DNA from: an uncultured Rhodospirillales bacterium
Lineage (GTDB): Bacteria > Pseudomonadota > Alphaproteobacteria > Azospirillales > Azospirillaceae
DNA: 64,000 nt
Assembly: GCA_903927615.1 (NCBI GenBank)
Contig: CAIYNU010000006.1
Span: 152,922 to 216,921, forward strand
Reading direction: 5' to 3'
Shown piece by piece: positions 14,796-37,536 of the stretch. Within the stretch, counting starts at the first letter, position 1. Every line of letters begins with the position of its first letter. A program made the translations under genes and the position numbers. The notes beneath the pieces were generated by a model, which ran no database searches, was not told the origin of the DNA, and was given only the letters and a program-made list of their open reading frames with translations.

Positions 14796-15046
14796 CAGTC
14801 GAACCGTGGCGGATCACGCAACGCCGGACGCGCCGGCAATTCAAGATCGTCCGCCCCACCAAGCGGCGCGAAGCGCGCCCGAATGCGGTCGTAGAGATGA
14901 CGCGGCGGCGACCGCTCCGGCTCCTTGAGCGTGATTTGGAGAATCTGCCGAGCTTCGGCCTCCATGGAATGCCCATGTTCGGCCGCACGCATCCGCAACC
15001 GCTCCTTCACCGCGACATCGAGGTTACGGATTGTCAGTGTGGCCAT
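14795..15046 (-). CDS. FitA/VapB-like ribbon-helix-helix antitoxin
   Basis: MATLTIRNLDVAVKERLRMRAAEHGHSMEAEARQILQITL; stop overlaps the toxin start (TGATG). Confidence 0.92.
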   Translation of the reverse strand: MATLTIRNLDVAVKERLRMRAAEHGHSMEAEARQILQITLKEPERSPPRHLYDRIRARFAPLGGADDLELPARPALRDPPRFD

Positions 15047-15298
15047 CGTGGTCTCAATGGGAGACTGGCTCTGGGAGACTTGCGCTGCTGCATGATGATG
15101 GCATTGTACGCGATGACTGCATTGATTGCAATGCCATAAGAGCTGCCACCGGCCAGGGGGCATACACTGCCGCATGCGGGCGAGCGGTTCGTGGTCCCAA
15201 CGGCGACCCAACCCGACCGGAAAACGCTCCGGCGTGGTCCATGGACTGTACGGTGCCCTCGGCACCAGGGTCAGAAACGAAGCGTCCCAGTCACAACC

Positions 15299-18132: not shown

Positions 18133-19002
18133 TTACTTTAACAGCGGGATGATGGCGCTCTGAAGGTGGAACTCGCCGTTGACCTTGCGGGCCGCCGCTT
18201 CCGCCGCCCGAATGGTGCCATAGGGGCCGATCCGGAACCGGTGGTAACTGTTGCCCTGAACCTCCACCACCTTGTCTTCAAAGCCCAGACCAAGCTTGTC
18301 AAGCTCGGCCCGCACCCCCTTGATGTTTTCGCTCTGACCGAACAGGCCGATCTGGACCTTATAGAATTCCCCCAACCGATGCGGGGTCAAGGCCGCGGCC
18401 GGATGCACCTTGACGTCCATCGATCCGGGCGACGGGGTCGCCGTTCCGGGCGCCGACGCCAGATCGATCTTCCTCTGGGCCTGCCGTTCCACATGGATGC
18501 GCAGGGAATATTCCTGGGCCAGGGCCTGGCCCTCGATAATCTCCTTGTCGTGGCCGGCCTGCTTCAGGCTGTCGCTCAACCGGGTCAGGTTATCGTTGGC
18601 GATGGTGCTGCTCTGGCCGTCATTCTGAGCCGCCGCCAAGGCGTACCAGGCGTAAGCGACCACCGGATTGGCGGGCTGAACTTGGCCCTTTTCGTAGATC
18701 AGGCCAAGGTTGTTCTGGCTGTCGGAATTCCCCAAATAGGCCGAGCGCAAATAGGAGCGATAGGCTTCAAGGTAATTTTGCGGCTTGCCCTTGCCTTCAT
18801 ACCACATGGTGCCGATCCAGAACTGGGCGCGCGCATCGCCCTGTTTGGCCAGCTTGTCGAACATGACAAATGCGTCACGGTATTCACCATGCTGATAAGT
18901 GGTCAACGCATCAGCATAGTAATCCGCTTTCGCCGGAGCCGCCAGGCACAAAGACAAAGCCAAGGCTGCCGGGATGCACGCCAGTGTATTTCTTGCTTTC
19001 AT
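18133..19002 (-). CDS. Exported Sel1/TPR-repeat protein with C-terminal SPOR domain
   Basis: Signal peptide-like N-terminus, Sel1-like GDARAQFWIGTMWYEGKG..., SPOR-like C-terminus FYKVQIGLFGQSENIKGVRAELDKLGLGFEDKVVEVQGNSYHRFRIGPYGTIRAAEAAARKV. Confidence 0.82.
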   Translation of the reverse strand: MKARNTLACIPAALALSLCLAAPAKADYYADALTTYQHGEYRDAFVMFDKLAKQGDARAQFWIGTMWYEGKGKPQNYLEAYRSYLRSAYLGNSDSQNNLGLIYEKGQVQPANPVVAYAWYALAAAQNDGQSSTIANDNLTRLSDSLKQAGHDKEIIEGQALAQEYSLRIHVERQAQRKIDLASAPGTATPSPGSMDVKVHPAAALTPHRLGEFYKVQIGLFGQSENIKGVRAELDKLGLGFEDKVVEVQGNSYHRFRIGPYGTIRAAEAAARKVNGEFHLQSAIIPLLK

Positions 19003-19028
19003 GTGATTTACCCCAAATTAGCCTAGTG

Positions 19029-19844
19029 TCATGGCTTCTTGAGCCCGGATGAGCGGAATCTCAGGACATAGCGATCGGTGCCATGCTCGGTTTTGCGCTC
19101 GAGCTGGACCCGATCATTGAGCACCGCGGTGACCGTCATGTTTTCCAGTTGATCGCCTTTGCGGATGTCCTTGTTGTCGACCGTCGCCACCTGCTCCTCG
19201 CCGATCCGCCCGATACCCGACAACTTGTAAATCCAGGTCAGATCAATTTCGGTGGTGACCACCTTGTTGATGTAGGTGAACCGTTGGAACGGATTGCGCC
19301 GGTCCGGGGCTTCGGCCGCTTCCCGCAACGCGGCGATGCGGGAACTCTCCAGTTCCTTGGCGTCATGGCGCGGCGTGATGGTGAACTCGATCGCGTGCAC
19401 CGGCGTCTTCTTGGTGTTGTCATACGGGTGGATTTGCAAGTCGTTGATGGCAACGTCGAGCGATTCCAGGCGCATGATGAACTTGAGGAAGGTATAGAAG
19501 TCGGTGGTGATCTTGATGGTAAATTTGATATTGCGATCCTTGGACGGGATCAATTCGTTGACGATGACGTTGGTCTGATGGGCGATGGCGTTGATGCGCT
19601 TCAGGAAGGCGGGCAGACTGTGAATCACCTGTTCTGCGCCGGTCTGCCGATCCTCCGCCATCTTGGCCTGAATCACCGCCAGGACCTGATTATCCTTTCT
19701 GATGATGTCCGCAATGATGGCGGCGTCGGAGCGCGCCACCGTCGCCGGACTGATCAGCACCGAATAGAGCAAGGCCGCGAGCGCCGTCAGGAGGAAGACC
19801 ACCGAAACAACGAAGGGCTGATATTTCCGGATAAAGGCGTCCAT
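19029..19844 (-). CDS. PilO-PilP-like fused pilus/T2SS assembly protein
   Basis: N-terminal TM + PilO-like segment (FLKRINAIAHQTNVIVNELIPSKD...FYTFLKFIMRLESLDVAINDLQIHP) and C-terminal PilP-like RNPFQRF...DLTWIYKLSGIGRIGEEQVATVDNKDIRKGDQLENMTVTAVLNDRVQLE. Confidence 0.72.
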   Translation of the reverse strand: MDAFIRKYQPFVVSVVFLLTALAALLYSVLISPATVARSDAAIIADIIRKDNQVLAVIQAKMAEDRQTGAEQVIHSLPAFLKRINAIAHQTNVIVNELIPSKDRNIKFTIKITTDFYTFLKFIMRLESLDVAINDLQIHPYDNTKKTPVHAIEFTITPRHDAKELESSRIAALREAAEAPDRRNPFQRFTYINKVVTTEIDLTWIYKLSGIGRIGEEQVATVDNKDIRKGDQLENMTVTAVLNDRVQLERKTEHGTDRYVLRFRSSGLKKP

Positions 19845-19878
19845 GATTCACCTCGAAGCCAATAAAATTGCGCGCGAC

Positions 19879-21900
19879 TTAGTGGCCTCCGTTGGGAGCC
19901 ATGCCGGGGATTCGTTGGAGCTGCTGGTTGTGCTGCTCCGTCGCCTGTTTCATGGCATCGATGCCGCCGGTTCCGCCCGAGGCGGCCGAGGTGTTGATGA
20001 CTTCCTGCCGCTTGGCTTCGTCATACCAGGCTTCGATGGTGAACCGGACCACCTGATCGGACTCGGCGGTGTCAATGGACAGCCCTTCGAACGTAATGTC
20101 TCTGAAGTCACTCATGAACTGGTTCTGGTCGTTCTGAAGCGCCTCGATGTATTCGGCGATTTTCTGGATGTGACCGTCGGTCGACGGCAGCACCGCCCCT
20201 TCCATCACCAGCTTTTTGGTGCTCAGCGATGTCTTGTCGATGCTTCGGGTTTCGGTGGTCAGGTAGAGATCGGTCAACCAGATTTCATTGGTCAGATGGT
20301 TGGACAAGGCGATGATCTTTTCGGTCCACAGCACTTTGTCCACGTCTTCGGCCGCGTGATACTGGACCCCGCCGCTGGCCACCGCCAGATGGCGTTGGGC
20401 GTTGTCCGTGACCACGGTGTTGAGGGCGCCCACTTGATTCAGCAGCTTGCTGTGGGCATCGTTATAGCTGTTGAACAGCAGATAGCCGACGCCGAACACG
20501 ATAATGCCCAGGGCCGCGAACCCCTGCTGATCGGCCCGGGCGGCGTCGTTGGGGGCTCCGGCCTCGCCGTCGCCCGGGGCCTTGCCGCCGTTCAGAAGCG
20601 CGCGCAGTTGGGTCAGCGCCGAGGGCTTGGCCGGCGCCGCCGCCGCGCCGCGCCGGCCGCGGGTGGTGGTGGACGAGCGGCGCTGTTGCTGCGGCTGGGC
20701 CTGTTCCCGGGCCGCGACCTCGCGGCGAACCTCGTCGGCCGGGCGGAACTGCTGGTTTTGGAAGGTGTAGGTGACGGCGCCGATCCGCAGGTCGCCGGTG
20801 GCCTCGGACAGCAGATTGAGCGGCACCTCGACCGGATAGGCCTGAATCAGATCCAGGATCGACCGGTCGACGAACTGCACGGTGAGCGGTGACGGCCCGT
20901 GGGTCAGGGTGTCGTGCAACAGCCGTTCCAGCCCGCGGACCCGCTCCACATCGCCGAAAATGTCCATGACCACGGGGCGGCCGGCGCACCGCTGTTCCTC
21001 GAAGAAGGCCAGCGAGGCGGCGATGTCGGTCAGGAAGCCCCGGATCGGTTCGCCCAGGATGCGCTCGGCCGGACTGCTGGTCAGGCTGGCCAGGGTGTCC
21101 TCGACCCCGCCGATGCGCAGGTCGGAAATCAGGTCCTGTTCGGCCAGCGACCGCATGGCTTCTTCGTGGGACACGCCGCTGCCCTGGGCCAGCAGGCGGC
21201 CCAGGGTGCCGACGCCGAACGGCAGCACCCGCCGGGTCACGGCGCCGATGGCCGGGTTGGACAGCAGCAGGGTGCTGGACAAGGCGCCGATCTGAAGCGC
21301 CACCGCCGGGCCGGACCGGTTGCCGCTGTGGGCCTGGCGGATCATCAGGTCGGAATGGGGCGTGACCGAGCGCACCTTGAGCGCCAACCGGTCGAGCCGC
21401 GACAGGTAGGCGCCCAGCCGGGTCGCGTCGATGAAGGCGATGACGCCGCCGCTGGCCTTGGCCAGCCCCCGATCGCTGGGCCCGAATTTGGCAAGACCGA
21501 AGGACACGCTGCGGCAGCGCAGATTGGCCCGGCCGAATTCATGCAGGGTGGCGGTGGACGCCGACGAAAAGACGTCGGGCAGCATGTCCTGATACAGCAC
21601 CTTGGGGTCGCCGAGGATCACGCGGATATCGGCGATCCGGTGGGGTTCGTGCTGGCGCAGGCTCAGGCCGGCGATCCGGAACATCTGTTCGATCGCCTGC
21701 TCGGAACTGTGGTCCTTGGGCAGATCGGCCAGGGCCTTGGCCGCCTCCCCCTGGTCGGTGATGAACCGGGTCTCGTGTTCATGGTGCTTGTCGACCAGCG
21801 CCGCCTGCCAACCGTCGTCGGTGACGTACAGGTACACCAGGAACCGCCCCTCACCCGCCTGCGCCTCCTCCGCCTCGCGCTTCTTGAATAGCTTGAACAT
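19879..21900 (-). CDS. PilM-PilN-like fused pilus/T2SS assembly protein
   Basis: N-terminal actin-like PilM-type region, Arg/Gln/Ala-rich linker, single TM (FAALGIIVFGVGYLLF), then PilN-like periplasmic domain (LWTEKIIALSNHLTNEIWLTDLYLTTE). Confidence 0.72.
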   Translation of the reverse strand: MFKLFKKREAEEAQAGEGRFLVYLYVTDDGWQAALVDKHHEHETRFITDQGEAAKALADLPKDHSSEQAIEQMFRIAGLSLRQHEPHRIADIRVILGDPKVLYQDMLPDVFSSASTATLHEFGRANLRCRSVSFGLAKFGPSDRGLAKASGGVIAFIDATRLGAYLSRLDRLALKVRSVTPHSDLMIRQAHSGNRSGPAVALQIGALSSTLLLSNPAIGAVTRRVLPFGVGTLGRLLAQGSGVSHEEAMRSLAEQDLISDLRIGGVEDTLASLTSSPAERILGEPIRGFLTDIAASLAFFEEQRCAGRPVVMDIFGDVERVRGLERLLHDTLTHGPSPLTVQFVDRSILDLIQAYPVEVPLNLLSEATGDLRIGAVTYTFQNQQFRPADEVRREVAAREQAQPQQQRRSSTTTRGRRGAAAAPAKPSALTQLRALLNGGKAPGDGEAGAPNDAARADQQGFAALGIIVFGVGYLLFNSYNDAHSKLLNQVGALNTVVTDNAQRHLAVASGGVQYHAAEDVDKVLWTEKIIALSNHLTNEIWLTDLYLTTETRSIDKTSLSTKKLVMEGAVLPSTDGHIQKIAEYIEALQNDQNQFMSDFRDITFEGLSIDTAESDQVVRFTIEAWYDEAKRQEVINTSAASGGTGGIDAMKQATEQHNQQLQRIPGMAPNGGH

Positions 21901-21942
21901 GGTCTCCTCGTCGGTCGGCTGGGGGTGGTCGGTGGGGTGGGG

Positions 21943-22872
21943 TTAGTTGGTGGGGGTCATGGGGATCGGGGCATTGCGCATAAGAAATTGAATCTTGGCT
22001 ATACCCTCATAAGGGGTGGTGCCGGATAGAACTGGTGTTGCCAATCCAGAAGAGACCGTTCCACATCCGACATAGTAGTACTTGCTCGTGCCTGTATCCA
22101 ATACACTGTCATCAACACAGAATCCAACGGTCAGACGATCAGCGCGATCCTTCAGATCGGAAAGCACGGGTATCGTTCCACTATCAGTCACGGATATATC
22201 GACCCGTAAATCACGATCATTATTCGGGAGCGCAAGAATGCCATGATCTCTCACCAAAGCCTGTATCGTAATGAAATAAGGGTTTGCGGTGTCCGTAGCT
22301 GAAACATTGGTCTGTTGTGGATACACCCAACGTCGAAACCCTGGTGAGGCAAAAGTTGGCGCATTTCCCTGCGAGTCCAACTGAATTTCGACCCTTTTGG
22401 GAGTTAACGTTGCATCACCGTCTAAGTAGCTTTGCAAACTGCGCGCCGGATATCCGGTCGGACTTACTGCCGGAAAGGCGTTATTGGTTGCGGTGAAAGG
22501 AAGACTGGTATTAACGGCTGCATCATCAAAGCATGCTATCGGCGTATTGTTTTGGTCACACTTACTCGCCCAGCTTGCAGCGGTGCCGGTGCTCATACCA
22601 CAAAAATAGTCTGTATTAGAATGTGAACTATTAGTGTTGTCGGTATCGCCACAGAGTCCCTGCCCACCAACCCGGCTAAACATATAATTGACATGCCCCA
22701 TCATCGCCCAATAGGTCCGGACATCGACCAGACTGGCTTCCACCTCGTTTTCTTCGGATGTTAGAAAATAGTTGGTGAGCGTGCCGGCCATCAACATAAT
22801 TATGGCCATAATGACCATGACGGTCAGTAACACCGCGCCACGCTGTTTGACTTTTGCTCGTGCGCACGTCAT
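21943..22872 (-). CDS. PilX-like pilus assembly / minor pilin-like protein
   Basis: KQRGAVLLTVMVIMAIIMLMAGTLTNYFLTSEENEVEASLVDVRTYWAMMGHVNYMF. Confidence 0.65.
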   Translation of the reverse strand: MTCARAKVKQRGAVLLTVMVIMAIIMLMAGTLTNYFLTSEENEVEASLVDVRTYWAMMGHVNYMFSRVGGQGLCGDTDNTNSSHSNTDYFCGMSTGTAASWASKCDQNNTPIACFDDAAVNTSLPFTATNNAFPAVSPTGYPARSLQSYLDGDATLTPKRVEIQLDSQGNAPTFASPGFRRWVYPQQTNVSATDTANPYFITIQALVRDHGILALPNNDRDLRVDISVTDSGTIPVLSDLKDRADRLTVGFCVDDSVLDTGTSKYYYVGCGTVSSGLATPVLSGTTPYEGIAKIQFLMRNAPIPMTPTN

Positions 22873-23585
22873 GGCGGTACCTGATCAATTAAATTGGTGA
22901 GGGCGGTCCAATAGACCGTTGATATTTCATCATCGGCCACATGATTGTTGCCATAGAATAGGGGGTTATATAGGTCAAATACAACCTCTTGTATATTTTG
23001 ACTGAAACCTCTCGTATTAGGGGTGGTCATCCGAAGGTACCCAGTCACATTCATATCTTGTCCGGTGACGCACCCAAAAACTGGTTGATTGGTGCCGGTG
23101 CAGGTGACCGTCACGGTCGGGACAGTGTCACTTGATAAAACATCGCTTTCTTGCACAGTTTGAGAAAAACTCGAAATCGCGGCATCGGTCGGCGGTAGCC
23201 CAAAAGTATCTTGTGGTGGTCCCCAAGCAGACACCCCTGATCTCAAGTCTGACGGAATTGACCATCCATCACCTTTTTCTACATTATTTCGCCCCCGCAA
23301 GCCAAATATATATTTGTAATTAACGTCAGTCGCTGGAGTGACAGCCGAACTCGTGCTGATATTAACCCCAGTTCGAAAGCCGCCAAGCGCAACTATATCA
23401 AACATCATCCGTGCTTGGCGGTTGAGTTCGGCCTTGTTCATCATGGCATCGGCGTTGCCGATGGCGTCGATGAACAGGCTGGCCAGGACCATCATCAGGA
23501 TCAAGCCGATGGTCATTGACATCATCAGCTCAATGAGCGTGAAGCCGGTTTGACTGTGATGCCGCAAGGGAAGCATGCTCGTCAT
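22869..23585 (-). CDS. Type IV prepilin-like protein (PilW/minor pilin type)
   Basis: HHSQTG|FTLIELMMSMTIGLILMMVLASLF. Confidence 0.85.
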   Translation of the reverse strand: MTSMLPLRHHSQTGFTLIELMMSMTIGLILMMVLASLFIDAIGNADAMMNKAELNRQARMMFDIVALGGFRTGVNISTSSAVTPATDVNYKYIFGLRGRNNVEKGDGWSIPSDLRSGVSAWGPPQDTFGLPPTDAAISSFSQTVQESDVLSSDTVPTVTVTCTGTNQPVFGCVTGQDMNVTGYLRMTTPNTRGFSQNIQEVVFDLYNPLFYGNNHVADDEISTVYWTALTNLIDQVPP

Positions 23586-24481
23586 GACTTGCGCTTTCCG
23601 ACGATGGTCTCGGCGGTGATGGTCTCCACCGGCGTGTCCGGGATCGGAACGCCCACCTTTTGAGTTGGGTCAAATCGGAAGGGGTAGTCAATATAAACGG
23701 TCAAGAAATAGCATGCGGTTAGATAGCAAGGACTGGTTGCCGTCGTCGGCGTGGGGGCACCAGTGCAGTCTTTAGCCGTAGGATAATAAGTATCATTGAT
23801 ACTGTATGTATTCGGCATTAGACAATAATCCCAGCTTAACTGGCCGACGATTTGATGAGCCTGATCAAGCCAGACGAAATTCCGCCGCGAAGCCCCCGTC
23901 CCCGTCATCAGGATATTGGTATAAACTGCTTGAGCGGTTGGTGGCGTTCCAGTTCCATTTGGCAAGCCTCCGTCTGGCGAAACCAACGTTTCGAAGGTTG
24001 TCAAATCGGCAGCAACCCCAGCATCAAGAACATATGACAATGCAGTTGTTGGGGCGCCTGGTGTATTTTTCCCAATGTTATAAACTCTACGGTTTGCTGC
24101 CTGTCCATTGGGATAGCTGTTGGTCGGTGTCGTGGATAAGAACGAGCCGGCATAGGCAGAGATAGCTTCAGTATAGGCAGGATTATTTTGTGTATAGTCG
24201 ACCCCGATGTCCAGTGGAGGTGTTTGTATGGTTGGATCGGTAATTGTAACGGGGGGGGGTCCGGCAACGGAACTGCTGTAGTTATACAACCCCACCAACC
24301 GCTCCATCTCGCCGTTCAGGCGAAAGATGGCCTTCTGGCGGTAGACCAGACTGTCGAATTGGGCGGCCACCACGGTCCACAGTGCGCTCATGCCGATCAT
24401 CAGCACCATCGTCAGCGCGAAGGCAACCATCACCTCGATCAGGGTAAAGCCGGACTGACGGCGGGTAGCGGGGCGGGGCAT
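23582..24481 (-). CDS. Type IV prepilin-like protein
   Basis: MPRPATRRQSG|FTLIEVMVAFALTMVLMIGMSALW; start ATG 24481; overlaps the next gene by 4 nt. Confidence 0.85.
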   Translation of the reverse strand: MPRPATRRQSGFTLIEVMVAFALTMVLMIGMSALWTVVAAQFDSLVYRQKAIFRLNGEMERLVGLYNYSSSVAGPPPVTITDPTIQTPPLDIGVDYTQNNPAYTEAISAYAGSFLSTTPTNSYPNGQAANRRVYNIGKNTPGAPTTALSYVLDAGVAADLTTFETLVSPDGGLPNGTGTPPTAQAVYTNILMTGTGASRRNFVWLDQAHQIVGQLSWDYCLMPNTYSINDTYYPTAKDCTGAPTPTTATSPCYLTACYFLTVYIDYPFRFDPTQKVGVPIPDTPVETITAETIVGKRKS

Positions 24482-24495
24482 GGCGGGGGCCGGGC

Positions 24496-25236
24496 TCAAT
24501 TGTTCAGGGCGTCGGAAAGGGTCACGCCGCCAAACCAGATCAGACCGGTGGTGGTGGCGTTGAGGGTGGTGCTGGCGTCGGTGCCGTCCTGCGCCTGGGG
24601 ATAGCTCATCACCAGCACCCGGCCTTCGCTGCCCCTGCCGCCGACCGCCGAGCTGAGAACCCAATTCTCCGGCGTCATCTTGGGCGTAGCGGTGGGATAA
24701 CTGGCGGTGCTGCATGTGACGGTGGGGTTGGTCGACGGTGTGACACTGGTCGGATCGGTGGGTTGGGTCCCCGGTGCCCGCAACACCGCGACGACCTGGA
24801 ATTGCGGCGCATGTCCCGTTACATTCATGTCCAGGGTATTGATCATGGCGCCGAAGTCGGTGTCGCTGGTGCTCAAGCTGCCGCCATCGTAATTTCCGCA
24901 TGACCATGTCGACGTGCCGACGCACATCACCATGAAACAGAAATCGCCGGCGTCATGGAGATCCAGCCCCAGTTTCTGTTGCAGTTGCTGCTCGTTGCCG
25001 GTGGCCAGATAATAGCCGGTGCGGTTGAAGTGCATCCGCTCCTTGGCCTTAATGGCCTCCATCAACGGCACCGCCTGCTTGAGGTTGCCCTGGAGCATAT
25101 AGCTGGCGAAATAGGGCAGGCCGACCGCTGCCAGGATACCGACGATGGCGATCACCACCATCAGTTCGATCAGGGTAAAGCCGGCCAAGCCGCGCCGCCG
25201 GGCCGTCCACTTCGCCGCCTGATTGTCCGTCGCCAT
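24496..25236 (-). CDS. Type IV pilin / pseudopilin
   Basis: MATDNQAAKWTARRRGLAG|FTLIELMVVIAIVGILAAVGLPYFASYMLQGNLKQAV; start ATG 25236 (upstream part of the ORF is antisense noise). Confidence 0.88.
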   Translation of the reverse strand: MATDNQAAKWTARRRGLAGFTLIELMVVIAIVGILAAVGLPYFASYMLQGNLKQAVPLMEAIKAKERMHFNRTGYYLATGNEQQLQQKLGLDLHDAGDFCFMVMCVGTSTWSCGNYDGGSLSTSDTDFGAMINTLDMNVTGHAPQFQVVAVLRAPGTQPTDPTSVTPSTNPTVTCSTASYPTATPKMTPENWVLSSAVGGRGSEGRVLVMSYPQAQDGTDASTTLNATTTGLIWFGGVTLSDALNN

Positions 25237-25253
25237 GGCGTGTCTTCCCTTTG

Positions 25254-26300
25254 TCAATGGCCACCCGCCAGATTGCCCATCTGGAACACCGGCAGGAACG
25301 CCGCCACCATCATGCCGGCGGTGGCCAGACCGACGAAGATGGTCAGGATCGGGTTGATCAACTGGGTGATCTGGTCCAGCCGGTCCTGAAGCAGACTGTC
25401 GAAGTAATCCGCCGACGACATCAGCAGTTCGTCCAGGGAGCCGGCCTCTTCGCCCGCCGCGATCATCTGCACCACGATGCCGTGGAAGACGTGATGATCC
25501 CGGAAGCTGACCGACAGGCCGCGCCCCCGCTCCACATCTTCGGCGATGTTGTAGATGGTTTCGCGGACGAACACGTTGCCGCAGGTGTCGGCGGCCAGCC
25601 GCAAGGCCGCCAGCACCGCCACCTCGTTTTCCACCTGGACCGCCAGGGTCCGCAGGAAGCGCGCCAGCGCCGCCATGCGCCACAACGGCCCCAGCAACGG
25701 CAACTTCAGCTTGTATTGGTCGAAGATCGCATTGCCGTCGGGCGTGCGCACCCAGGCCTGAAAGCTGAGGATCAGGGCCACCAGGGAGCCGACGATCCAG
25801 GTCCAGTTGGCGCCCCAATAGGCGCCCATGTCGAGCAGAAACTGCGTCGGCGCCGGCAACGCCTTGTGCAGATTATTAAAAATCGACTGGAAGCGCGGCA
25901 GGATGCCGAACACCATGCCGTTGAAGATGCCGAAAAAGGCGATCAAGACAATCATCGGATAGGTGACGGCCGAACGGACCTTGCGCTCGGTGTCGTGAAT
26001 GACCTTGAGGTAATGGGCGATTTCGGTCAACGAACCGGCCAGCCGGGCCGATTCCATGCCGGCCCGCACCACATTGACATAGACGCTGTCGAACATGCGC
26101 GGATGCATGGCCATGGCGTCGGCCATGTCCACGCCATGCTGCACCTCTTCCGAGATGCTTTCGATGGCGGCGCGCAATTTCTTCTGGGGCGTTTCCGCGG
26201 CCAGATTGTCGAGAACATCGACCAGCGGCAACTTGCTGCGCAACATCGAAGCAAATTGCTGGGTAAAGATCATCATGTGGACGCGAGAGACGCCGGCCAT
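25254..26300 (-). CDS. Type II secretion F / PilC-GspF inner-membrane platform protein
   Basis: FTQQFASMLRSKLPLVDVLDNLA...QHGVDMADAMAMHPRMFDSVYVNVVRAGMESARLAGSLTEIAHYL; duplicated T2SSF architecture. Confidence 0.93.
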   Translation of the reverse strand: MAGVSRVHMMIFTQQFASMLRSKLPLVDVLDNLAAETPQKKLRAAIESISEEVQHGVDMADAMAMHPRMFDSVYVNVVRAGMESARLAGSLTEIAHYLKVIHDTERKVRSAVTYPMIVLIAFFGIFNGMVFGILPRFQSIFNNLHKALPAPTQFLLDMGAYWGANWTWIVGSLVALILSFQAWVRTPDGNAIFDQYKLKLPLLGPLWRMAALARFLRTLAVQVENEVAVLAALRLAADTCGNVFVRETIYNIAEDVERGRGLSVSFRDHHVFHGIVVQMIAAGEEAGSLDELLMSSADYFDSLLQDRLDQITQLINPILTIFVGLATAGMMVAAFLPVFQMGNLAGGH

Positions 26301-26301
26301 G

Positions 26302-28863: not shown

Positions 28864-28893
28864 CCGTTTCAGGGCGCGTGGCGTTAAGGGTGC

Positions 28894-30531
28894 TTAGCGG
28901 TAAACGAGGCGAAAGCCGATGTCATTGCGCGATTCGGTCGGTGGCGCGGAAGAGCGGAAGGCGCAACGTCCCTGCACGGAGAATGACTGGAAGCTGCCAC
29001 CGCGCAAAACCCGGTGGGCCTTGGGATTGACGTTTTTGGGATCGTTAACCGGATTGAGTGTTCCCTGCTGAATATTCGTATAGAATTTTTCTTCGTAAAC
29101 GTCCAGACACCATTCCCAAACATTCCCACACATATCATAGATTTCAAAGCGATTGCTACCTTCGGGATAGGCCCCGACGATACTGGTCGTTCTGGAAATG
29201 TTATTGATATTGGCGCGAACCGGAGATGGAGGATCGTCGCCCCAAGGATAATCAATCAGTTTTTGTCCGGCCCGGGCCGCATATTCCCATTGCGCTTCGG
29301 ATGGTAAAGTTCCTCCCGCCCAGCGCGCGAACTGCATGGCCTCATCGAAGGTAACGCCAACCACCGGATGGTTGGGAGCCCCAAACGCCGGATGGTCGTG
29401 CAACGGCGGTTTGCGCCGCCCGGTGCTTTCGGCATACTCAATATATTCCCGGTTGGTGACCGGCATGCGATCGATGCGGAATGGGTTGAGAATGATCTTC
29501 CGGGTCGGCAGTTCGTTGGCGTTGACGCCCTTGGCCCCGGCCTTGGCCCCCAACAGATAGTCGCCCCCCGGCAGTTCCACCGCCTTGGACGAACGGAACC
29601 CCTGCCCACCCGCGCCGACGATCTCCAAACTGTCCGGCGGATAGAGCAGGTCCTTCGGCTTGGTCAGCACCGTCACCAGATCGTCGGCGGACTGGATGCG
29701 ACGCTCCGGCTCGTAGGCCGTCAATTGCAGGATGACCCGGTCGAAGGGCGGCCGCACCGCCGCATTGAAGTCGCTGGGCGGCTGAATCTCGTGAAGGGGG
29801 ATGCGGGGCGGCTTGCGGGTCTTCAGAATGTCCTTGAGCGAATGGGGCGGAATCCGACCCGTGAACAGCTCATAGGCCAGAATGCCCAGGGCGAACAAAT
29901 CCGCCCGCCGATCGACCTTATCCGGCGCCTCGTACTGCTCGGGCGCCATGTATTTCGGGGTGAAGGCCTGGGCGGTGGTGCGATCGGTCTTGTCGCCGAT
30001 CACCGAAAACCCGAAGTCCATAATGACCGGCTTACGGATATCCCCTTCACGCAGAAAAATATTTTGCGGCTTCAGGTCCCGATGAACGATGCCGGGAAAA
30101 TCACTGGTCGGGGTGTGCGCGTAAGACAGCGCCTCGGCGATTTTGCGCAATAATTCCAGTCGTATTTCAGCGGTATCCAGCAGGTCATCGAGATGGTTGT
30201 TCATCCAATCCCGAAGTTCCAAGCCGTTGATCAAGTCCATGACGGTCCCGAACCCTTCGGGACCGTCGTAAAGATCGTGGATCGCGCAGATATTCTGGTG
30301 GCGAAGCCGGCGCGAAATCAAAACTTCGGTGCGCAGGCTTTGCTTCATTAACTCCCGATTGCTTTCGCTGCTCAGGATCTCAGGCTTCAGGATTTTGATC
30401 GCAACGTCATAGTTCAGTTCGGTGTCACGCACCCGATACACATTGGCGGTGCCGCCCTTGCCCAGCATCCGCCAGTCCGAATAGCGGCTGGGTCCGGCTG
30501 CCGGGGTCTTTGTCTGGTTCATCACCGACAT
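28894..30531 (-). CDS. Ser/Thr protein kinase fused to formylglycine-generating-enzyme-like (SUMF1/FGE) domain
   Basis: LGKGGTANVYRV, VAIKIL, IVHRDLKPQNIFL, IMDFGFS (kinase); FRIDRMPVTNREYIEYAEST...HPVVGVTFDEAMQFARWAGGTLPSEAQWEYAARAG...NVWEWCLD...RVLRGGSF...IGFRLVYR (FGE-like). Confidence 0.95.
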   Translation of the reverse strand: MSVMNQTKTPAAGPSRYSDWRMLGKGGTANVYRVRDTELNYDVAIKILKPEILSSESNRELMKQSLRTEVLISRRLRHQNICAIHDLYDGPEGFGTVMDLINGLELRDWMNNHLDDLLDTAEIRLELLRKIAEALSYAHTPTSDFPGIVHRDLKPQNIFLREGDIRKPVIMDFGFSVIGDKTDRTTAQAFTPKYMAPEQYEAPDKVDRRADLFALGILAYELFTGRIPPHSLKDILKTRKPPRIPLHEIQPPSDFNAAVRPPFDRVILQLTAYEPERRIQSADDLVTVLTKPKDLLYPPDSLEIVGAGGQGFRSSKAVELPGGDYLLGAKAGAKGVNANELPTRKIILNPFRIDRMPVTNREYIEYAESTGRRKPPLHDHPAFGAPNHPVVGVTFDEAMQFARWAGGTLPSEAQWEYAARAGQKLIDYPWGDDPPSPVRANINNISRTTSIVGAYPEGSNRFEIYDMCGNVWEWCLDVYEEKFYTNIQQGTLNPVNDPKNVNPKAHRVLRGGSFQSFSVQGRCAFRSSAPPTESRNDIGFRLVYR

Positions 30532-30581
30532 GTCACAATCCCAGACCGAGGCAAGGCCGAAACCCGTTTTCCGTACCGCGT

Positions 30582-31241
30582 TCAGCTACCGACTATGGCG
30601 CTCATCAGAACCCGAGACCCTTCCGGCGTGTCACCGTAACGGTACTCCATCCGGACGTAATTCTTGGTCGCCGGCGCATACCACCACCGCTCATAGGCGG
30701 TCCAATCGCTGGTCAGGCTGCGCTTGCGCATGACGATGACGAAGGTGTCGAAGGTGCCGGCGGGGACCGTGATCCGCTCCCGGTTTTCAATCACCCACGA
30801 CGTTTGATGTCGCACCAGTTCCTTGTCGCGCAAGTACTCTTCGATGTAGACCATCGGCTGGCCGAGCGGGGCCTTGTAAAACACCGCGTCCGGATTCTCG
30901 GAGCGGAACACCACCTGCCGGGTCGTGCCCTCCTGCTGGGAGGTCTGACGGAAGAAGCCGTTGTTGATGAACCATTCGCCGGGAACATCAAGCCGTTCGA
31001 ACTTCGTCAGCGCGTCTTTGGCCTCGGCCACCCGCACCGCGTAACCGTCGCTGTAGCGCCATTCGTCACCAACCCGCCACTGCGGCTTGGCCAACACCAG
31101 GCTTTCCAGCGAGTTGGTCGCTTTCGGCGCGGCAGGCAAAGTCGGCATTGAACCGATCGAAGGCGACGACGGCTCGGGCGTGCTGCATGCAGAAAGAACC
31201 AGCATACCTGTCAGGATAACCCCAAGAGTCCGCGCTTTCAT
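30582..31241 (-). CDS. Predicted lipoprotein of unknown function in the pilus cluster
   Basis: MKARTLGVILTGMLVLSAC|STPEPSS lipobox; start ATG 31241. Confidence 0.75.
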   Translation of the reverse strand: MKARTLGVILTGMLVLSACSTPEPSSPSIGSMPTLPAAPKATNSLESLVLAKPQWRVGDEWRYSDGYAVRVAEAKDALTKFERLDVPGEWFINNGFFRQTSQQEGTTRQVVFRSENPDAVFYKAPLGQPMVYIEEYLRDKELVRHQTSWVIENRERITVPAGTFDTFVIVMRKRSLTSDWTAYERWWYAPATKNYVRMEYRYGDTPEGSRVLMSAIVGS

Positions 31242-31358
31242 TGTTCCTCCTCGTTCGGCGCAAATATCATCCGGCCTGGCCCGATAAATCGAGACAACGA
31301 TCGACGACGGTGGCCGCTGCTCCGACATCGCTGGTGGTACGCTTATCCGTCAAACCGA

Positions 31359-31826
31359 TCACAAACCCACAAGTGCCAGCAAACCCACAGACTGACCGGA
31401 CAGCCGTTCCCACGAGCCCTCGGCGTGGCCCCCTTCCTTGGGGAACCCACTCACATCCCCGACCGCGTAGGTATAGAGTAACGGGGCTTGCCCCGCCCGC
31501 ATCGCGGCGTCGCTGGTCATGGCCCGAAGAACCAGGGTATGGGTCTTATCCGAGTATGCGTCATAGACAAAATTCGCGGCGGCGTCCTTCAGCGGGACCC
31601 CCAAGGTCCCGCTGATGATGCCCTGTTGGTTGGTCCGAAAATAGACGACGTTCCCATTGGGTTCGAACGCTTTCAGGCGCTCGGCCTGTACGATCTGGTC
31701 CATGGCGGCGGATGCGGCAGTCTTCGCCGTAGCCACTTGGGCTTGATAGTAGAAGGGGTAAGCGACCGCGACCGCGACCGCGAGACACCCGATCAACCAA
31801 TTCAATGACGCAACCAACCGCAGCAT
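31359..31826 (-). CDS. Membrane-anchored pilin-like protein of unknown function
   Basis: N-terminal hydrophobic helix MLRLVASLNWLIGCLAVAVAVAYPFYYQAQVATAKTAASAAMDQI without a canonical prepilin G|F site; sits between the secretin and lipoprotein genes. Confidence 0.55.
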   Translation of the reverse strand: MLRLVASLNWLIGCLAVAVAVAYPFYYQAQVATAKTAASAAMDQIVQAERLKAFEPNGNVVYFRTNQQGIISGTLGVPLKDAAANFVYDAYSDKTHTLVLRAMTSDAAMRAGQAPLLYTYAVGDVSGFPKEGGHAEGSWERLSGQSVGLLALVGL

Positions 31827-31858
31827 GACCGCTCTCCCCCACTCAGTCGCCCGCCCCT

Positions 31859-33898
31859 TTATTCATCGTCGTGGACGGCCTTGGGAGCGAGATCCAACAA
31901 CCGGCTCTTGTTCCGGACGCCATCGGCGATCCGATCGATATCGGCACGCTCGGCCTGAAGATAGCGCTTCTCGGCGACATCCTTGGAATACAGCGCGGCA
32001 CGCGGCACGATCTTCGGTGTGATGAAGAACATGGTTTCGGTATAGGCCCGATCCGAGGTGGTGCTTTTGAACAATTCACCCAGAACCGGAATGTCACCGA
32101 GCAGCGGCACCTGATTCTTGGCCTCTCCCCGATTGATATGGCTCAGACCGCCCATGATGAAGGTCGAACCGTCCGGGATGACCACCTGGGTCTGGATCTG
32201 CTCGCCGTTACGGGCCGCGCTGGCCGACGCACTGGTCGGAGCCGTGACCGCGGTTTGCTCGGCCTCGATCACCATGCGCACCATGTTCTCGCCGCCGGCG
32301 TCGTCATGCCGGAGCACCGAGGGGGTGATTTTGAGCGTGGTTCCGGCCGGCACGGTCATGAACCCGCCGGGCGTGTTGGCCGCCGCGGGAACCGGGACGA
32401 AGGTGGTGCCGTCGGTGCTGATCTTGGCGGCGACGTTGTCGATGGTGACCACCCGCGGCGAATCCACGATATGGCCCTGATTGTTTGACTCCAGCGCAGT
32501 CAACTGGGCGTTCAGGGTGGTATTGGCACCGCGGAAGATCAGCGACGCGAAGGTCCCCGCCCCGCTGCCGGCCCCGGCCAGATTCAGGGGCGACACATTG
32601 CCGGTGGTGTCATTCGGGGTGTTTGGGGGCACCGTGTAGAAGGAGTTCGTCGAGCGGGCGAGGGTTCCGATTGCACCACCCACCGCCTGCGAACCGACCA
32701 GGGCGGCATCATTGCCAAAGGTGACGCCCAAAGACCGCGAGAAACTTTGGGTGGTCTGGGCGATGATGGCCTCGATCTCCACCTGTTCCATCTGCTTGTC
32801 CAGTTTGGGCAGCAAACTTCTGACCTGTTCGATCTCGCCGGGGGTGCCGCGCACGATCACCGAATTGGTCCGAACGTCGGCGGAAAGGGTGCCGTGGAAG
32901 TCACTGGGGGGGCGCTGCTGGGGCGCCTGGGCCAAGGACGGACCACCGGCCATAAACCTCTCATTCACCGAAGGCGGTGTGCCGGGGCGATTCTGATCCG
33001 ATGCCGGAATCGGCGGCGTGATGAAAGGTGACCGGGATTCCCCGTTGTCGCCCTGGGCCGCCGCCTTGGCGGCGTTGGTGACGCCAAGCAGGTTGTTGAG
33101 TGTATCGATCACACCCGGAATGGTGACGCTTTCCCCCTGGAACTGAACCCGGGTCGGGCCGACGCTGGCATAGTGCAGCTTGAGGACTTCGACCTTGATG
33201 CTGTCCACGTCGGACTGCGCGCGCTGTTCCTGAGCCAGACGATAGGCGGCCTGCTGGGCTTCGGCCTGTCTCTTCATGGCCTCGGCCTGGGACAAGGCTG
33301 CGGTGCTGGCGGCCGCATAGTTGTCGGCTTCGGACTTGTCGCGCTCGGCCGCGGACGCTTCCAACCGGCTGATCAGATCCGCGAGGTTCTTAACCTGATC
33401 GGGTTTGCCCCTCAGCATGATCGTCTTGCTGGGCTGGTCGTAAATAATCGAAACGTCCTTATCGAGGTCGAAATGGTGGGCGGCGCTTTTGACGGCCTCG
33501 TCCGTGACGTTCTTGTTCTTAAGAGGAATAAAGGTCGTCTCGGTCACGCCTTTGGCTAAAATCGTGACGGTATGAGTTTCGTCATTATACTCATAATCAA
33601 GACCATTCTCTTCCATCAGCTTGTTGAAAGCCGCCAGCAACGGCATCGGGGTCGTCATAAAATCAAAGGTGACGGTCCCCTTCACGTCCGGGCGGAAGAA
33701 CGCGGAGAGCTTATCCGCGGCCAGCAGCTTGCGCAGAACATCACGAATATCTTCGTCGTGCGCGTTCTCCTGGAAGACTTCGGTCTTGCTCAAGGGGATT
33801 TCCATCGCCTTGGCCATCGGCGCCACAGCAACCAGAACCGCCGCCGACAGCAACACCCGGCGCATGGCGACACCGAAACACTCCGTAGCCTTTCGCAT
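31859..33898 (-). CDS. Outer-membrane secretin (PilQ/MshL/GspD family)
   Basis: N-terminal domain VFQENAHDEDIRDVLRKLLAADKLSAFFRPDVKGTVTFDFMTTPMPLLAAFNKLMEENGLDYEYNDETHTVTIL; C-terminal NNQGHIVDSPRVVTIDNVAAKIS...VIPDGSTFIMGGLSHINRGEAKNQVPLLGDIPVLGELFKS. Confidence 0.93.
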   Translation of the reverse strand: MRKATECFGVAMRRVLLSAAVLVAVAPMAKAMEIPLSKTEVFQENAHDEDIRDVLRKLLAADKLSAFFRPDVKGTVTFDFMTTPMPLLAAFNKLMEENGLDYEYNDETHTVTILAKGVTETTFIPLKNKNVTDEAVKSAAHHFDLDKDVSIIYDQPSKTIMLRGKPDQVKNLADLISRLEASAAERDKSEADNYAAASTAALSQAEAMKRQAEAQQAAYRLAQEQRAQSDVDSIKVEVLKLHYASVGPTRVQFQGESVTIPGVIDTLNNLLGVTNAAKAAAQGDNGESRSPFITPPIPASDQNRPGTPPSVNERFMAGGPSLAQAPQQRPPSDFHGTLSADVRTNSVIVRGTPGEIEQVRSLLPKLDKQMEQVEIEAIIAQTTQSFSRSLGVTFGNDAALVGSQAVGGAIGTLARSTNSFYTVPPNTPNDTTGNVSPLNLAGAGSGAGTFASLIFRGANTTLNAQLTALESNNQGHIVDSPRVVTIDNVAAKISTDGTTFVPVPAAANTPGGFMTVPAGTTLKITPSVLRHDDAGGENMVRMVIEAEQTAVTAPTSASASAARNGEQIQTQVVIPDGSTFIMGGLSHINRGEAKNQVPLLGDIPVLGELFKSTTSDRAYTETMFFITPKIVPRAALYSKDVAEKRYLQAERADIDRIADGVRNKSRLLDLAPKAVHDDE

Positions 33899-34501
33899 CC
33901 CGCACCTTTCGGCAAGCCTGTGGTCGTCTGACCCGGCGACAAACAAAGACACCACGGTCCAGTTGCGGGAGCGAAAAATCTCTCACCCGCAAAAGCCGTA
34001 CTGAGATGTCTTAACGCGAGGAGCAACCTCTTTCAATACACAATAAACCGCCGACCGCGCCTTTGATGACGAACCCTTCGAAGCTTGACTTGTTTGCCAC
34101 AAGCCGAACAACCAGTGAACGCAGATCCGACTGTTCTCAAGGGCAGAATTGAAACGTTCATGACGGCCAATAAACCGCCGGGAACCATGGTTTTTGAAAC
34201 AAGTCCAAGGCCTCGTCCCGGGTTTCGGGGCGATCAGATGGCGGCAAGTGGCTTCCGGGACCCGATGTCCGGATGAATCGAGGCCTAGCTTTGGGAGTCT
34301 GATCTGGCCATCACCGGCAAAGCGGAGGCGGTGAAATGTCCAAAGTTCCAGGGTCAGGAAATCTGGTGTTTCCGGAAGCGAAAAGAGGCCGTTGACGGCT
34401 GCGCCTGCCTGATCTTGACGGTCAGCCAGGGATGCTGCGGTCGGTGTCACCTTCGTTCAAGGCCGTCTGATCGGGGGCCGGGCACCGGTTCATTGTCGAT
34501 A

Positions 34502-35347
34502 TCAGCCCCGCAAACCAAACATCGCACCCAGCGTGCCCCCCCACAGCAAGGCTGCGACGCCCCCAATGAGCAGAAACGGTCCGAACGGCACCGGTTGCGA
34601 ACGATGTCTATTTCCAGAGAAAACCAGGGCGAGCCCCACGATGCTTCCGAGTACGCTCGCGATCACTGCCACCTGCGGCAGGTGACTCCAGCCGATCCAG
34701 GCCCCGATCGCGCCCAGAAGCTTGGCATCACCGGCTCCCATGACCGGATGTCCGGTCAGCCGGGCCCCGACTCGACTGAGCATAAGGAAAGCCAGGTAGC
34801 CGGCCACGGCACCGATGATCGCGACCGAGGAGGTGACGAAGATGTTTTGGGTCGATGCCAGCAATCCCAGCCATAACAGCGGCAAAGACAACAAATCCGG
34901 GATCAACATGTGGCGCAGATCAATCGCAGCGATGGCGATGGCAAACCACACGAACACCGTGGCCGTCAGCCCCTGGGCGGTTAAACCGAAGTGCCAGGTC
35001 AGCAGCGGACCGGCGGCGGCGGATGCCGCCTCGACCACCGGGTAACGCCAGCCAATGGGGGCGGCACAGGCCGAGCAGCGGCCGAGCAGCACAAGGTAAC
35101 TCAGGAGCGGCACATTTTCCCATGGCCGCAACCGGTGGCCGCAGCTTGGACAGGCCGAAGCCGGCAGCGCCAGATCATATCGATCGTCTTCGCCGGCGTC
35201 GCCGTCTTCGCCGGAGCCGCGGTCGATCATGATCGGCAGGCGATGGATGACGACGTTGAGGAAACTGCCGATCAGGGCGCCGATCAGTCCCAGACCGATC
35301 AGTTGCAGGGTTTCGGGCAGGTGCAGCAGGCCAGACAGTGACGTCAC
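34502..35347 (-). CDS. pilD: Prepilin peptidase (GTG start)
   Basis: GALIGSFLNVVIHRLPIMI...CPSCGHRLRPWENVPLLSYLVLLGRCSACAAPI...AIDLRHMLIPD...GHPVMGAGDAKLLGAIGAWIG. Confidence 0.95.
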   Translation of the reverse strand: MTSLSGLLHLPETLQLIGLGLIGALIGSFLNVVIHRLPIMIDRGSGEDGDAGEDDRYDLALPASACPSCGHRLRPWENVPLLSYLVLLGRCSACAAPIGWRYPVVEAASAAAGPLLTWHFGLTAQGLTATVFVWFAIAIAAIDLRHMLIPDLLSLPLLWLGLLASTQNIFVTSSVAIIGAVAGYLAFLMLSRVGARLTGHPVMGAGDAKLLGAIGAWIGWSHLPQVAVIASVLGSIVGLALVFSGNRHRSQPVPFGPFLLIGGVAALLWGGTLGAMFGLRG

Positions 35348-35349
35348 CG

Positions 35350-36324
35350 TTATCTTCCCCGTAAGAGCAACTTCGATGGCGCGGCGGCCGAGGCATCGTA
35401 CGGAAGCCGACTCGAGGGATAGCGATTGAGGATACGGCGGACATAGGTTTGGGTTTCCGAGAACGGCGGAATGCCGCCATGGGCCTCCACCGCCCCCTCG
35501 CCGGCATTGTAGCCGGCCAGGGCCAGTTGGACGTCGCCCTCGAAACGCGCCAGCAACCAACGCAGGTAGCTCATGCCGCCCCGGAGATTGTCCTCGGGAT
35601 CGAACAGGTCGACCACCCCGAAACGGGCGGCGGTTTCCGGGATCAGTTGCATCAGGCCGCAGGCTCCCCGGTTGGACACGGAGCCCGCCTTGAACCCCGA
35701 CTCGGCGTCGATGACCACCAGCACCAGGGCCGGATCCAGATGGTAACGCGGCGCCATGGATTGCACCAGGGAGACGATACGCTGGGGCGGCGGCGACGAA
35801 AAGCCGGAGGGGGGCCGGGGCACCACGCCCGGCTGGTAGGGGACCGGCACGAACGCCGAGGGTTGACGGCGCGGTGAGCATGATGGCGCGTCGCCGCCGA
35901 AATAGCTGCCCATGGCCCGGGCCATGGCCTGGGCATAGGAATGGCCGTTCCTCGCCGCCACCCGAACCCAGGCCTGGCTGTTGCGGATGTCGACCGGTAC
36001 GCCCCAACCCATCAGGAAAATCTGACCCAGGCGCCACGCCGCCTCGGGATGACCGTGCTCTGCCGCCTTGCAGTACCATTCACGGGCCTTGCGCAGATCG
36101 GGCGGAACATCTTCGCCCAAGTCATAAACCCGGGCGAGATCGAACTGGGCGGCGACATTCTTATCGTGCGTGGCCTCGGCTTGCAGCGCGGCCACCTCGG
36201 GTGGCAGATCCGCGGCCGGAACCGGTCCCACCTGCGCCAACATCACACCGGCCGCCAATGCCCCCAGGCGGCTGGCCCTGACCCCGTGCCGTCGCGACAA
36301 ACCTAGCCCCCCAACGCCGGTCAC
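35350..36324 (-). CDS. Sel1-repeat / lytic transglycosylase (SLT) fusion
   Basis: Sel1-like segments then LVLVVIDAESGFKAGSVSNRGACGLMQLIPETAARFGV...LALAGYNAGEGAVEAHGGIPPFSETQTYVRRIL. Confidence 0.9.
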   Translation of the reverse strand: MTGVGGLGLSRRHGVRASRLGALAAGVMLAQVGPVPAADLPPEVAALQAEATHDKNVAAQFDLARVYDLGEDVPPDLRKAREWYCKAAEHGHPEAAWRLGQIFLMGWGVPVDIRNSQAWVRVAARNGHSYAQAMARAMGSYFGGDAPSCSPRRQPSAFVPVPYQPGVVPRPPSGFSSPPPQRIVSLVQSMAPRYHLDPALVLVVIDAESGFKAGSVSNRGACGLMQLIPETAARFGVVDLFDPEDNLRGGMSYLRWLLARFEGDVQLALAGYNAGEGAVEAHGGIPPFSETQTYVRRILNRYPSSRLPYDASAAAPSKLLLRGR

Positions 36325-36370
36325 ACCCCCGCGCCGGACCCGCCCGACCGGCGCCCCCTCAAACGGCGTC

Positions 36371-36418
36371 GGGAGTCCGATCGACTCCCCCGCCGACGGG
36401 CGGGTCGATCGGACTCCC
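36371..36418. terminator. Strong hairpin, 14-bp perfect stem (GGGAGTCCGATCGA / TCGATCGGACTCCC)
   Basis: Inverted repeat at 36371-36384 and 36405-36418; upstream of the SLT gene, downstream of the pilin gene (minus strand). Confidence 0.65.
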
Positions 36419-36540
36419 GGATTGGAATGATCTATGGAAAATGCGGCTTCATCGTATGCTTTTTCTCACAAGAACCGGGACTCATGCCAACGGCCCCACG
36501 GTCCGGGACCATCGTACGAGAACGCCTTGCGCCAGGTCAC

Positions 36541-36571
36541 TTCATCGCAGCCACGGAATGGCTGCGATGAA
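36541..36571 (-). terminator. Hairpin TTCATCGCAGCCA-N5-TGGCTGCGATGAA just after the pilin stop
   Basis: Perfect 13-bp stem with 5-nt loop, about 14 nt downstream of the pilin stop. Confidence 0.8.
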
Positions 36572-36584
36572 TATCCCCAAGTCC

Positions 36585-37244
36585 TTAGCCTGCCGACGAC
36601 GTGCCCGCACTGCTGCTGGTAGCGCAGGCGCCACCCGCAGTAAAGGTCGAAGCCGCGACGTATTCACCGGTGAAGGTGTTGCCCGTCCAGCCTGTATTGG
36701 TTGATGGGATCGAGGAGAAGTAAACGTGAGACTGCGTTGTGGGAGTTGCCGCCGTCCAACTACTGCTGGTAATAGATCCCGCCTGCGCGACCACGCAAAC
36801 ATTAATCGGGCTCGCCGAACCGGCAGTGGCGGCCGCGGCATAAACCTTGTATTCCCAGGTCGTGCCCGACGACAAAGACCACGCCATGGCCGACAAAGCC
36901 TTGGAGATGTCGTGAGTTCCGCCGGTGCCCGTTTCGGACGGATCTTCGACCTTGCCGTTGACCGCACTGACGACGTTCGCCACCGTCATGCCGACGCCGA
37001 GCAAACCGGCCACCGACGAGGAAATCGCCGCCGCGTTCTGGATCGGGTCGGTGGTCTGCGCCTGCTTCACGAAATTCATGAACACAGGAATGCCGATGCT
37101 CGCCAGGATGCCGATGATCGCGACCACGACCATCAGTTCGATCAGGGTGAAGCCGCCCTCTTTGCTAAGCTTCCTTTGGTTGATAACATACCTGATCTGA
37201 TCAGCGACAGGCATGGCATCAATATTTTCGCGCCCGTTTTTCAT
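36585..37244 (-). CDS. Probable major type IV pilin with long leader
   Basis: MKNGRENIDAMPVADQIRYVINQRKLSKEGG|FTLIELMVVVAIIGILASIGIPVFMNFVKQAQTTDPI; AAGGAAC SD-like sequence upstream of ATG 37244; strong terminator after the stop. Confidence 0.87.
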   Translation of the reverse strand: MKNGRENIDAMPVADQIRYVINQRKLSKEGGFTLIELMVVVAIIGILASIGIPVFMNFVKQAQTTDPIQNAAAISSSVAGLLGVGMTVANVVSAVNGKVEDPSETGTGGTHDISKALSAMAWSLSSGTTWEYKVYAAAATAGSASPINVCVVAQAGSITSSSWTAATPTTQSHVYFSSIPSTNTGWTGNTFTGEYVAASTFTAGGACATSSSAGTSSAG

Positions 37245-37536
37245 GCGCCCGTTCCTTTGCATTCTCGGTTGTGCCAACCGTTAGTTGCGAATTTCGTACT
37301 TTATGCCACCAATGTTGCACACGCATGCAAAACATGGCGGCATCTTGTGCCCCCACCGGCCCTGGTTGCCGAACGTCACGCCGGAGCGAGAATCGACAGG
37401 GTGTGATCATCGCTCAACGGATCGACTGTTTCCAGAGTCATGTAACGGTGTTGTGAGGGCCCCACCATTTTTTTGATGATCATGCGCCCGACCATACCAC
37501 CAGCGACGGGTGAGTACGACCTCATTCGAGCCGTCG

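Follow-up and report, generated by a model that had tools for sequence, protein, structure and literature searches.

A Ser/Thr kinase paired with an FHA-bearing PilB/GspE-class ATPase: a candidate phosphothreonine-controlled fibre-assembly motor

Introduction

Known regulators of type IV filament motors are c-di-GMP and partner proteins. Regarding kinases and their FHA partners, TagR is an FGE-like activator of PpkA, and the mycobacterial gene pknF adjoins Rv1747, the linker of which carries phosphosites. In type VI secretion systems (T6SS), a Ser/Thr kinase, an FHA reader and a PP2C phosphatase control an envelope machine, and Fha binds phosphorylated TssL (PMC10482370). Rv1747 is a transport ATPase with FHA domains that is regulated by the Ser/Thr kinase PknF (PMC5549992), and GarA carries an ETTS phosphosite in a disordered extension that is bound by its own FHA domain (PMC5448819). 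On a type IV filament ATPase, an N-terminal FHA domain and a disordered linker are described for the class III CpaF proteins of Tad pili, in the consulted sections of a report that make no mention of a kinase partner of CpaF (PMC12019362).

An FHA domain and linker on a PilB/GspE motor, together with a kinase, was not found in the open-access papers searched. Here we describe such an arrangement in the window, that is, the whole stretch of 64,000 nucleotides that was analysed. A sequence-only reading of this DNA had proposed, by analogy with the PpkA-Fha pathway, that a kinase gates pilus assembly or secretion through the FHA-bearing ATPase encoded next to it.

Results

Organization of the locus

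ORF calls and Pfam matches delimit a pilus/T2SS-like block on the minus strand, at 18133-37277 (Table 1). Read from 37277 down to 18133, the gene order is prepilin, Sel1-SLT, prepilin peptidase, secretin, unkA, unkB, kinase-FGE, FHA-MshEN-T2SSE ATPase, PilC/GspF, three prepilins, PilX/GspK-like protein, PilM-PilN, PilO-PilP and Sel1-SPOR. The kinase gene lies upstream of the ATPase gene on the same strand, with 30 bases between the kinase stop and the ATPase start, and the 3' end of the ATPase gene overlaps the PilC ORF. Promoter and terminator scans remained at chance level.

All genes named in the sequence-only reading were found on the minus strand, at the positions it had given them or close by, and some of its assignments need to be widened. 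The weak similarity behind its PilM-PilN and PilO-PilP fusions is present, but the two proteins are equally GspL-like and GspM-like, and no solved relative was found with the PilO-PilP profile. Likewise, its PilX-like protein is minor-pilin-like but equally GspK-like. As for the two small proteins left without assignment, unkA indeed has no Pfam match, whereas unkB belongs to a conserved lipoprotein-like family of such loci. The unkA protein appears pilin-like by eye, lacks the prepilin cleavage motif and is less well conserved than unkB.

Two neighbouring regions should be mentioned. A TPR protein with a glycosyl transferase family 41 domain, encoded at 39665-42292, adjoins the pilus block and is a candidate pilin glycosyltransferase. 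At 14373-15265, reading of the translations alone indicates an apparent VapC/PIN-type toxin and antitoxin gene pair.

Table 1. Features of the pilus/T2SS-like block, with the evidence for each assignment.
Feature	Coordinates	Strand	Evidence and remarks
Prepilin, long leader	36585..37244	-	N_methyl
Sel1-repeat lytic transglycosylase	35350..36324	-	Pfam
Prepilin peptidase	34502..35347	-	Pfam; start approximate, within ORF 34502-36079
Secretin	31859..33955	-	Pfam; start codon uncertain, 33865 or 33898 likely
unkA, small protein	31359..31826	-	N-terminal hydrophobic segment; relatives in same position
unkB, lipoprotein-like	30582..31328	-	Alignment; conserved family typical of such loci
Kinase-FGE fusion	28894..30531	-	Pfam; kinase ~29692-30480, FGE/SUMF-like ~28903-29586
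FHA-linker-MshEN-T2SSE ATPase, PilB/GspE class	26302..28863	-	Pfam; nearest solved structures PilB and GspE
FHA domain of ATPase	28537..28755	-	Arg41, Ser60 and Asn84 present
FHA-MshEN linker, candidate phosphosites	27994..28518	-	Thr-hydrophobic-hydrophobic motifs
PilC/GspF platform protein	25254..26315	-	Pfam T2SSF
Prepilin 1	24496..25236	-	N_methyl
Prepilin 2	23582..24481	-	N_methyl
Prepilin 3	22869..23585	-	N_methyl
PilX/GspK-like minor pilin	21943..22872	-	Weak GspK match, E 6e-4, below cut-off
PilM-PilN fusion, GspL-like	19879..21900	-	Weak profile match to solved PilM
PilO-PilP fusion, GspM-like	19029..19844	-	T2SSM match below cut-off
Sel1-SPOR protein	18133..19002	-	Pfam; syntenic in G004

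Class of the machine

The block holds a type IVa pilus set, namely a PilB-class motor, PilC, PilD, a secretin, prepilins and PilM-N-O-P, the last four as two weakly similar fusions. The curated T2SS cut-offs were not reached (GspE 492 of 630 bits, GspD 172 of 351, GspK 19 of 130), and the profile scores of the ATPase fall between PilB and GspE, those of the secretin between PilQ, GspD and SctC. From these profiles the machine is best described as type IV pilus/T2SS-like, and their intermediate scores would fit a pilus and a secretion pseudopilus alike.

The sequence-only reading had seen neither PilT nor PP2C, and none occurs among the scanned proteins of the block. A PilT-type retraction ATPase was not found in the draft genome either, which is 98% complete and yields two T2SSE matches, one being the window ATPase and the other, on contig C87, a CpaF/TadA-like protein. 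One PP2C (PP2C_2 match) is encoded outside the locus, at C2:17511-18185.

Membership of two known classes was rejected. Like a Tad/CpaF motor the ATPase bears an FHA domain, but it is of the PilB/GspE class, with a best CpaF match of 39 bits versus 359 for PilB. Regarding T6SS, no core family of that system occurs among the proteins of the block, and no transmembrane or hydrophobic segment is seen in the kinase sequence, PpkA being membrane-bound.

The kinase-FGE protein

Pfam recognizes both parts of the fusion (Pkinase 8e-38, FGE-sulfatase 7e-51). The kinase described earlier as active-looking does keep its catalytic residues: Lys46, Glu69, His-Arg-Asp 150-152, Asn157 and Asp-Phe-Gly 172-174 are retained by all 13 orthologs identified below, this protein included. 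Both catalytic cysteines of FGE, by comparison with solved FGEs, are absent here and in the orthologs, and an active formylglycine-generating enzyme was rejected; the domain is thus probably a binding or sensing domain.

A second kinase-FGE copy, 72% identical, is encoded in the same genome on contig C76 (L042, 11316-13115). It is a pseudokinase, with HGN for HRD and KFG for DFG; its neighbours are Era- and LepB-like genes rather than an ATPase, and G004 lacks a counterpart. The Era-like ORF ends early, at 244 aa, possibly through a frameshift or an assembly error. Catalytic residues are therefore retained in every ATPase-linked kinase copy and lost in the single unlinked paralog.

Pairing of kinase and ATPase across genomes

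Orthologs were searched with the kinase alone as query, so that the neighbouring ATPase remained outside the query. Among 385 sampled genomes of the class, presumably Alphaproteobacteria, only G124 and G227 were returned besides the window's own genome; relatives of G227 added G417, and 398 genomes sampled from the phylum added seven outside the class. The resulting 13 loci comprise two from the window's genus (including G004), three from elsewhere in the class and eight, in seven genomes, from outside it. The system is rare, occurring in about 1% of the class sample and about 2% of the phylum sample.

The concern that the kinase-ATPase adjacency might be unique to this genome can be set aside, as in 13/13 loci the next gene downstream of the kinase, on the same strand, encodes a PilB/GspE-like ATPase. 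The gap varies from an overlap to 311 bases, and PilC comes next after the ATPase wherever the contig reaches. Directly before the kinase stands a prepilin gene outside the window's genus (where the contig reaches), and unkB in the window and in G004. Distances of kinase, ATPase motor and PilC correlate (Spearman 0.84-0.89, with rho 0.89 for kinase versus ATPase), and 0 of 2000 permutations gave values as high. At 28 ordinary ATPase neighbourhoods of the relatives, no kinase-FGE or FHA relative lay within 1.5 kb. Chance adjacency was considered and rejected.

Within the genus, G004 carries a syntenic copy from the prepilin peptidase to Sel1-SPOR, with a kinase 86% and a PilC 93% identical to those of the window. 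Synonymous sites between the two are near saturation and the kinase dN is about 0.08, which indicates purifying selection on the kinase protein. The same-genus genomes G001 and G003 gave no kinase match and only dissimilar ATPases, and in G002 the kinase and FGE parts were matched only weakly and incompletely, the ATPase not at all. No relative was found on plasmids at 1e-40. A kinase-alignment scan of genome contigs with two very general patterns returned at least 80 loci, holding unrelated kinases or FGE proteins of 25-37% identity.

The FHA and MshEN domains of the ATPase

The fusion of an FHA domain to the assembly ATPase, noted earlier from the translation, is borne out by Pfam (FHA 3.6e-14, MshEN 1.3e-5, T2SSE 1e-119). 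Solved bacterial relatives of the domain include the FHA of mycobacterial TB39.8, and a resemblance to TagH falls below cut-off. An FHA domain is present on 8/13 of the ATPases beside kinase orthologs; the other five show that a fused FHA is not obligatory. The sequence-only reading had made its case depend on the phosphothreonine-binding residues, and these are conserved in the alignment: Gly40-Arg41, Ser60-Arg61 and Gly85-Thr86 are invariant in 8/8 domains and Asn84 is kept in 7/8, while identity to the window copy outside the genus is just 23-29%. Catalytic kinase residues and phosphothreonine-binding FHA residues, as a signalling pair of kinase and FHA would need, are both present.

The c-di-GMP motif RLGxx(L/V/I) is absent from MshEN in all five family members checked (the window and four relatives), so that a c-di-GMP-binding MshEN was rejected; the absence suggests that phosphorylation may have taken over from c-di-GMP in the control of the motor.

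Threonine motifs in the FHA-MshEN linker

Between FHA and MshEN, the window ATPase carries four Thr-hydrophobic-hydrophobic motifs (GGTVLF, STVLF, TTMIV and EHTMLA), compared with 0.5 in shuffled sequences. The linkers of the eight ortholog FHA-ATPases hold 3-11 such motifs each. Acidic residues usually precede the motifs, and some relatives have them in almost perfect tandem repeats; examples are DATVVRP (G499), DEATIMAP (G522) and EEATMLA (G464). Each of the eight exceeds its own shuffles (p 0.0095 or less). Taken together, FHA-ATPase linkers contain 54 motifs in 1947 residues, those of FHA-less relatives 11 in 2055 and those of ordinary PilB/GspE-type ATPases 2 in 1026. It should be noted that the G417 linker is overlong in this count because its Walker A is altered; when it is left out, the FHA-less relatives have 9 motifs in 1428 residues and the conclusion is unchanged. 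These threonines, which the sequence-only reading had not seen, are likely candidate substrates of the kinase, and the motifs resemble GarA-type self-bound phosphosites.

The locus of G124 is informative in this regard. Its ATPase has no FHA domain and contains DETVFE twice, and a gene run of the same operon (L044:5293-7360) encodes a PP2C phosphatase and a histidine-kinase-like protein that bears an FHA domain at its C-terminus, near which lies DETIFF. DET[VI]F motifs are thus common to the ATPase and the FHA protein, from which we infer the same reader-and-mark pair, split over two proteins. The PP2C of this locus is similar to the one encoded in the window's genome (E 8e-37).

Related loci found with unkB

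A reverse test with unkB as query, independent of the kinase, recovered further loci with unkB relatives. In G525 the gene just upstream of an FHA-ATPase encodes a different, longer kinase-FGE, and in G567 the FHA-ATPase has no kinase next to it, so that kinase-FGE adjoins the FHA-ATPase in 9/10 loci. The slot that separates pilin from ATPase differs among the other genomes: it contains two genes, for a kinase and for an FGE-TIR fusion, in G427 (L175:10330-12982), an FGE-like protein alone in G556, and neither kinase nor FGE in G538 and G439. This varied content indicates that FHA, kinase and FGE are associated but exchangeable parts.

Some of these relatives have further peculiarities. The ATPases of G538 (L176:11034-18233) and G439 (L178:11577-18626) begin with about 440 residues that Pfam does not recognize; in both loci the protein after PilC has about 1160-1190 aa, with weak WD40 and cyclase matches in L176. 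A caspase-like (Peptidase_C14)-FGE fusion follows the PilO-P gene in G468 (L144:5674-7533). An ExeA/MshM-like AAA ATPase with a peptidoglycan-binding domain is encoded near PilC in two loci (L143:17352-19157 and L146:17828-19999) and was not seen in the window's locus.

Discussion

The recurrence of the kinase-ATPase pairing in distant relatives suggests that phosphorylation switches the fibre machine on or off. Our main reading, to which we give a probability of roughly 60%, is that of a phosphothreonine-controlled fibre-assembly motor, in which the kinase would mark linker threonines and the FHA domains of the ATPase ring would read them and so set motor activity. Its basis at the level of sequence is the gene pairing, the intact kinase and FHA residues and the enrichment of motifs where FHA is fused. 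A signal or partner bound by the pseudo-FGE domain would control the kinase, which would phosphorylate threonines of the ATPase linker; as in GarA, the marks would be bound by FHA domains of the hexamer, either in cis or across protomers. Such binding might then alter the activity of the motor, or how it docks to PilM-PilN and PilC, and thereby gate assembly of the pilus or pseudopilus, and a PP2C encoded in trans could reset the marks.

The earlier kinase-FHA-ATPase proposal is partly supported, by the adjacency (13/13) and by the FHA residues, and has to be adjusted in its T6SS analogy and for the absence of FHA from 5/13 ATPases. In favour of the motor reading are G124, whose operon encodes both an FHA protein and a PP2C besides an ATPase without fused FHA, and the similar PP2C of the window's genome. 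Those FHA-less ATPases, the motif-free linker of G525, the lack of a kinase in G567 and the position of PP2C outside the locus count against it.

G525 also bears on a different reading, in which the FHA domain docks on the autophosphorylated kinase or on a phosphorylated inner-membrane part and recruits the motor to the platform, the linker motifs being secondary. That genome has kinase and FHA-ATPase with no linker motifs, and the binding of phosphorylated TssL by Fha offers a precedent (PMC10482370, PMC3953482). We nevertheless judge docking unlikely, since the Thr motifs are concentrated in FHA-ATPase linkers, the remaining proteins of the operons having only 37 in 8045 residues. The same FHA stretch matches Yop-YscD_cpl, as would suit a phosphate-independent scaffold that positions the ATPase like the FHA-like cytoplasmic domain of the T3SS YscD ring; this is very improbable in view of the near-invariant binding residues in otherwise divergent domains and of the kinase that adjoins nearly every FHA-ATPase. 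We attach scarcely any weight to co-transcription without direct action, with kinase-FGE as a separate signalling protein travelling with the operon, which the kinase-less, FGE-only and kinase plus FGE-TIR slots would allow but against which stand the fixed position, the correlated evolution and the loss of catalytic residues in the unlinked paralog alone.

The phosphothreonine-controlled motor can be extended to a wider proposal, which we advance tentatively and with the odds somewhat against it: the loci may form a separate type IV filament branch in Pseudomonadota, in which a multisite phosphothreonine counter, built into the motor, took the place of c-di-GMP control. Tandem Thr marks would be written on the linker by a sensor kinase with a pseudo-FGE domain and read by the FHA domains of the hexamer, with the reader sometimes on a separate protein. 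In the wider family the pilin-ATPase slot exchanges signalling modules, among them kinase-FGE, FGE-like protein alone and split kinase plus FGE-TIR. With a conserved kinase and repeated Thr motifs, kinase control of the PilB/GspE motor is open to a direct test.

Compared with known systems, the locus shares MshEN ahead of the T2SSE motor with MshE and PilB and differs from them in the missing RLG motif of the five members checked. With the PpkA-Fha-PppA pathway of T6SS it shares a kinase, an FHA reader and a PP2C, here in trans, and it differs in having a fibre motor, an FHA domain fused to the assembly ATPase, a soluble kinase with a fused FGE-like domain and a PP2C outside the locus. The kinase-FHA pairing of the original analogy therefore stands, but not the membrane-bound kinase. 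As FHA and candidate phosphosites lie in one protein beside the kinase, the likeness to GarA-PknG or Rv1747-PknF is at least as close, even though GarA/OdhI is a small metabolic regulator with one motif rather than repeats and Rv1747 is an ABC transporter with two FHA domains. Class III CpaF differs in its motor, which here is of the PilB/GspE class with MshEN, and the window's ATPase has an adjacent kinase. An FHA-linker on Tad CpaF, kinase-FHA control in T6SS and a kinase-regulated FHA transport ATPase were thus already known separately; if the present reading is true, these loci would join them in a PilB/GspE motor that a Ser/Thr kinase controls directly by way of the motor's own FHA domain.
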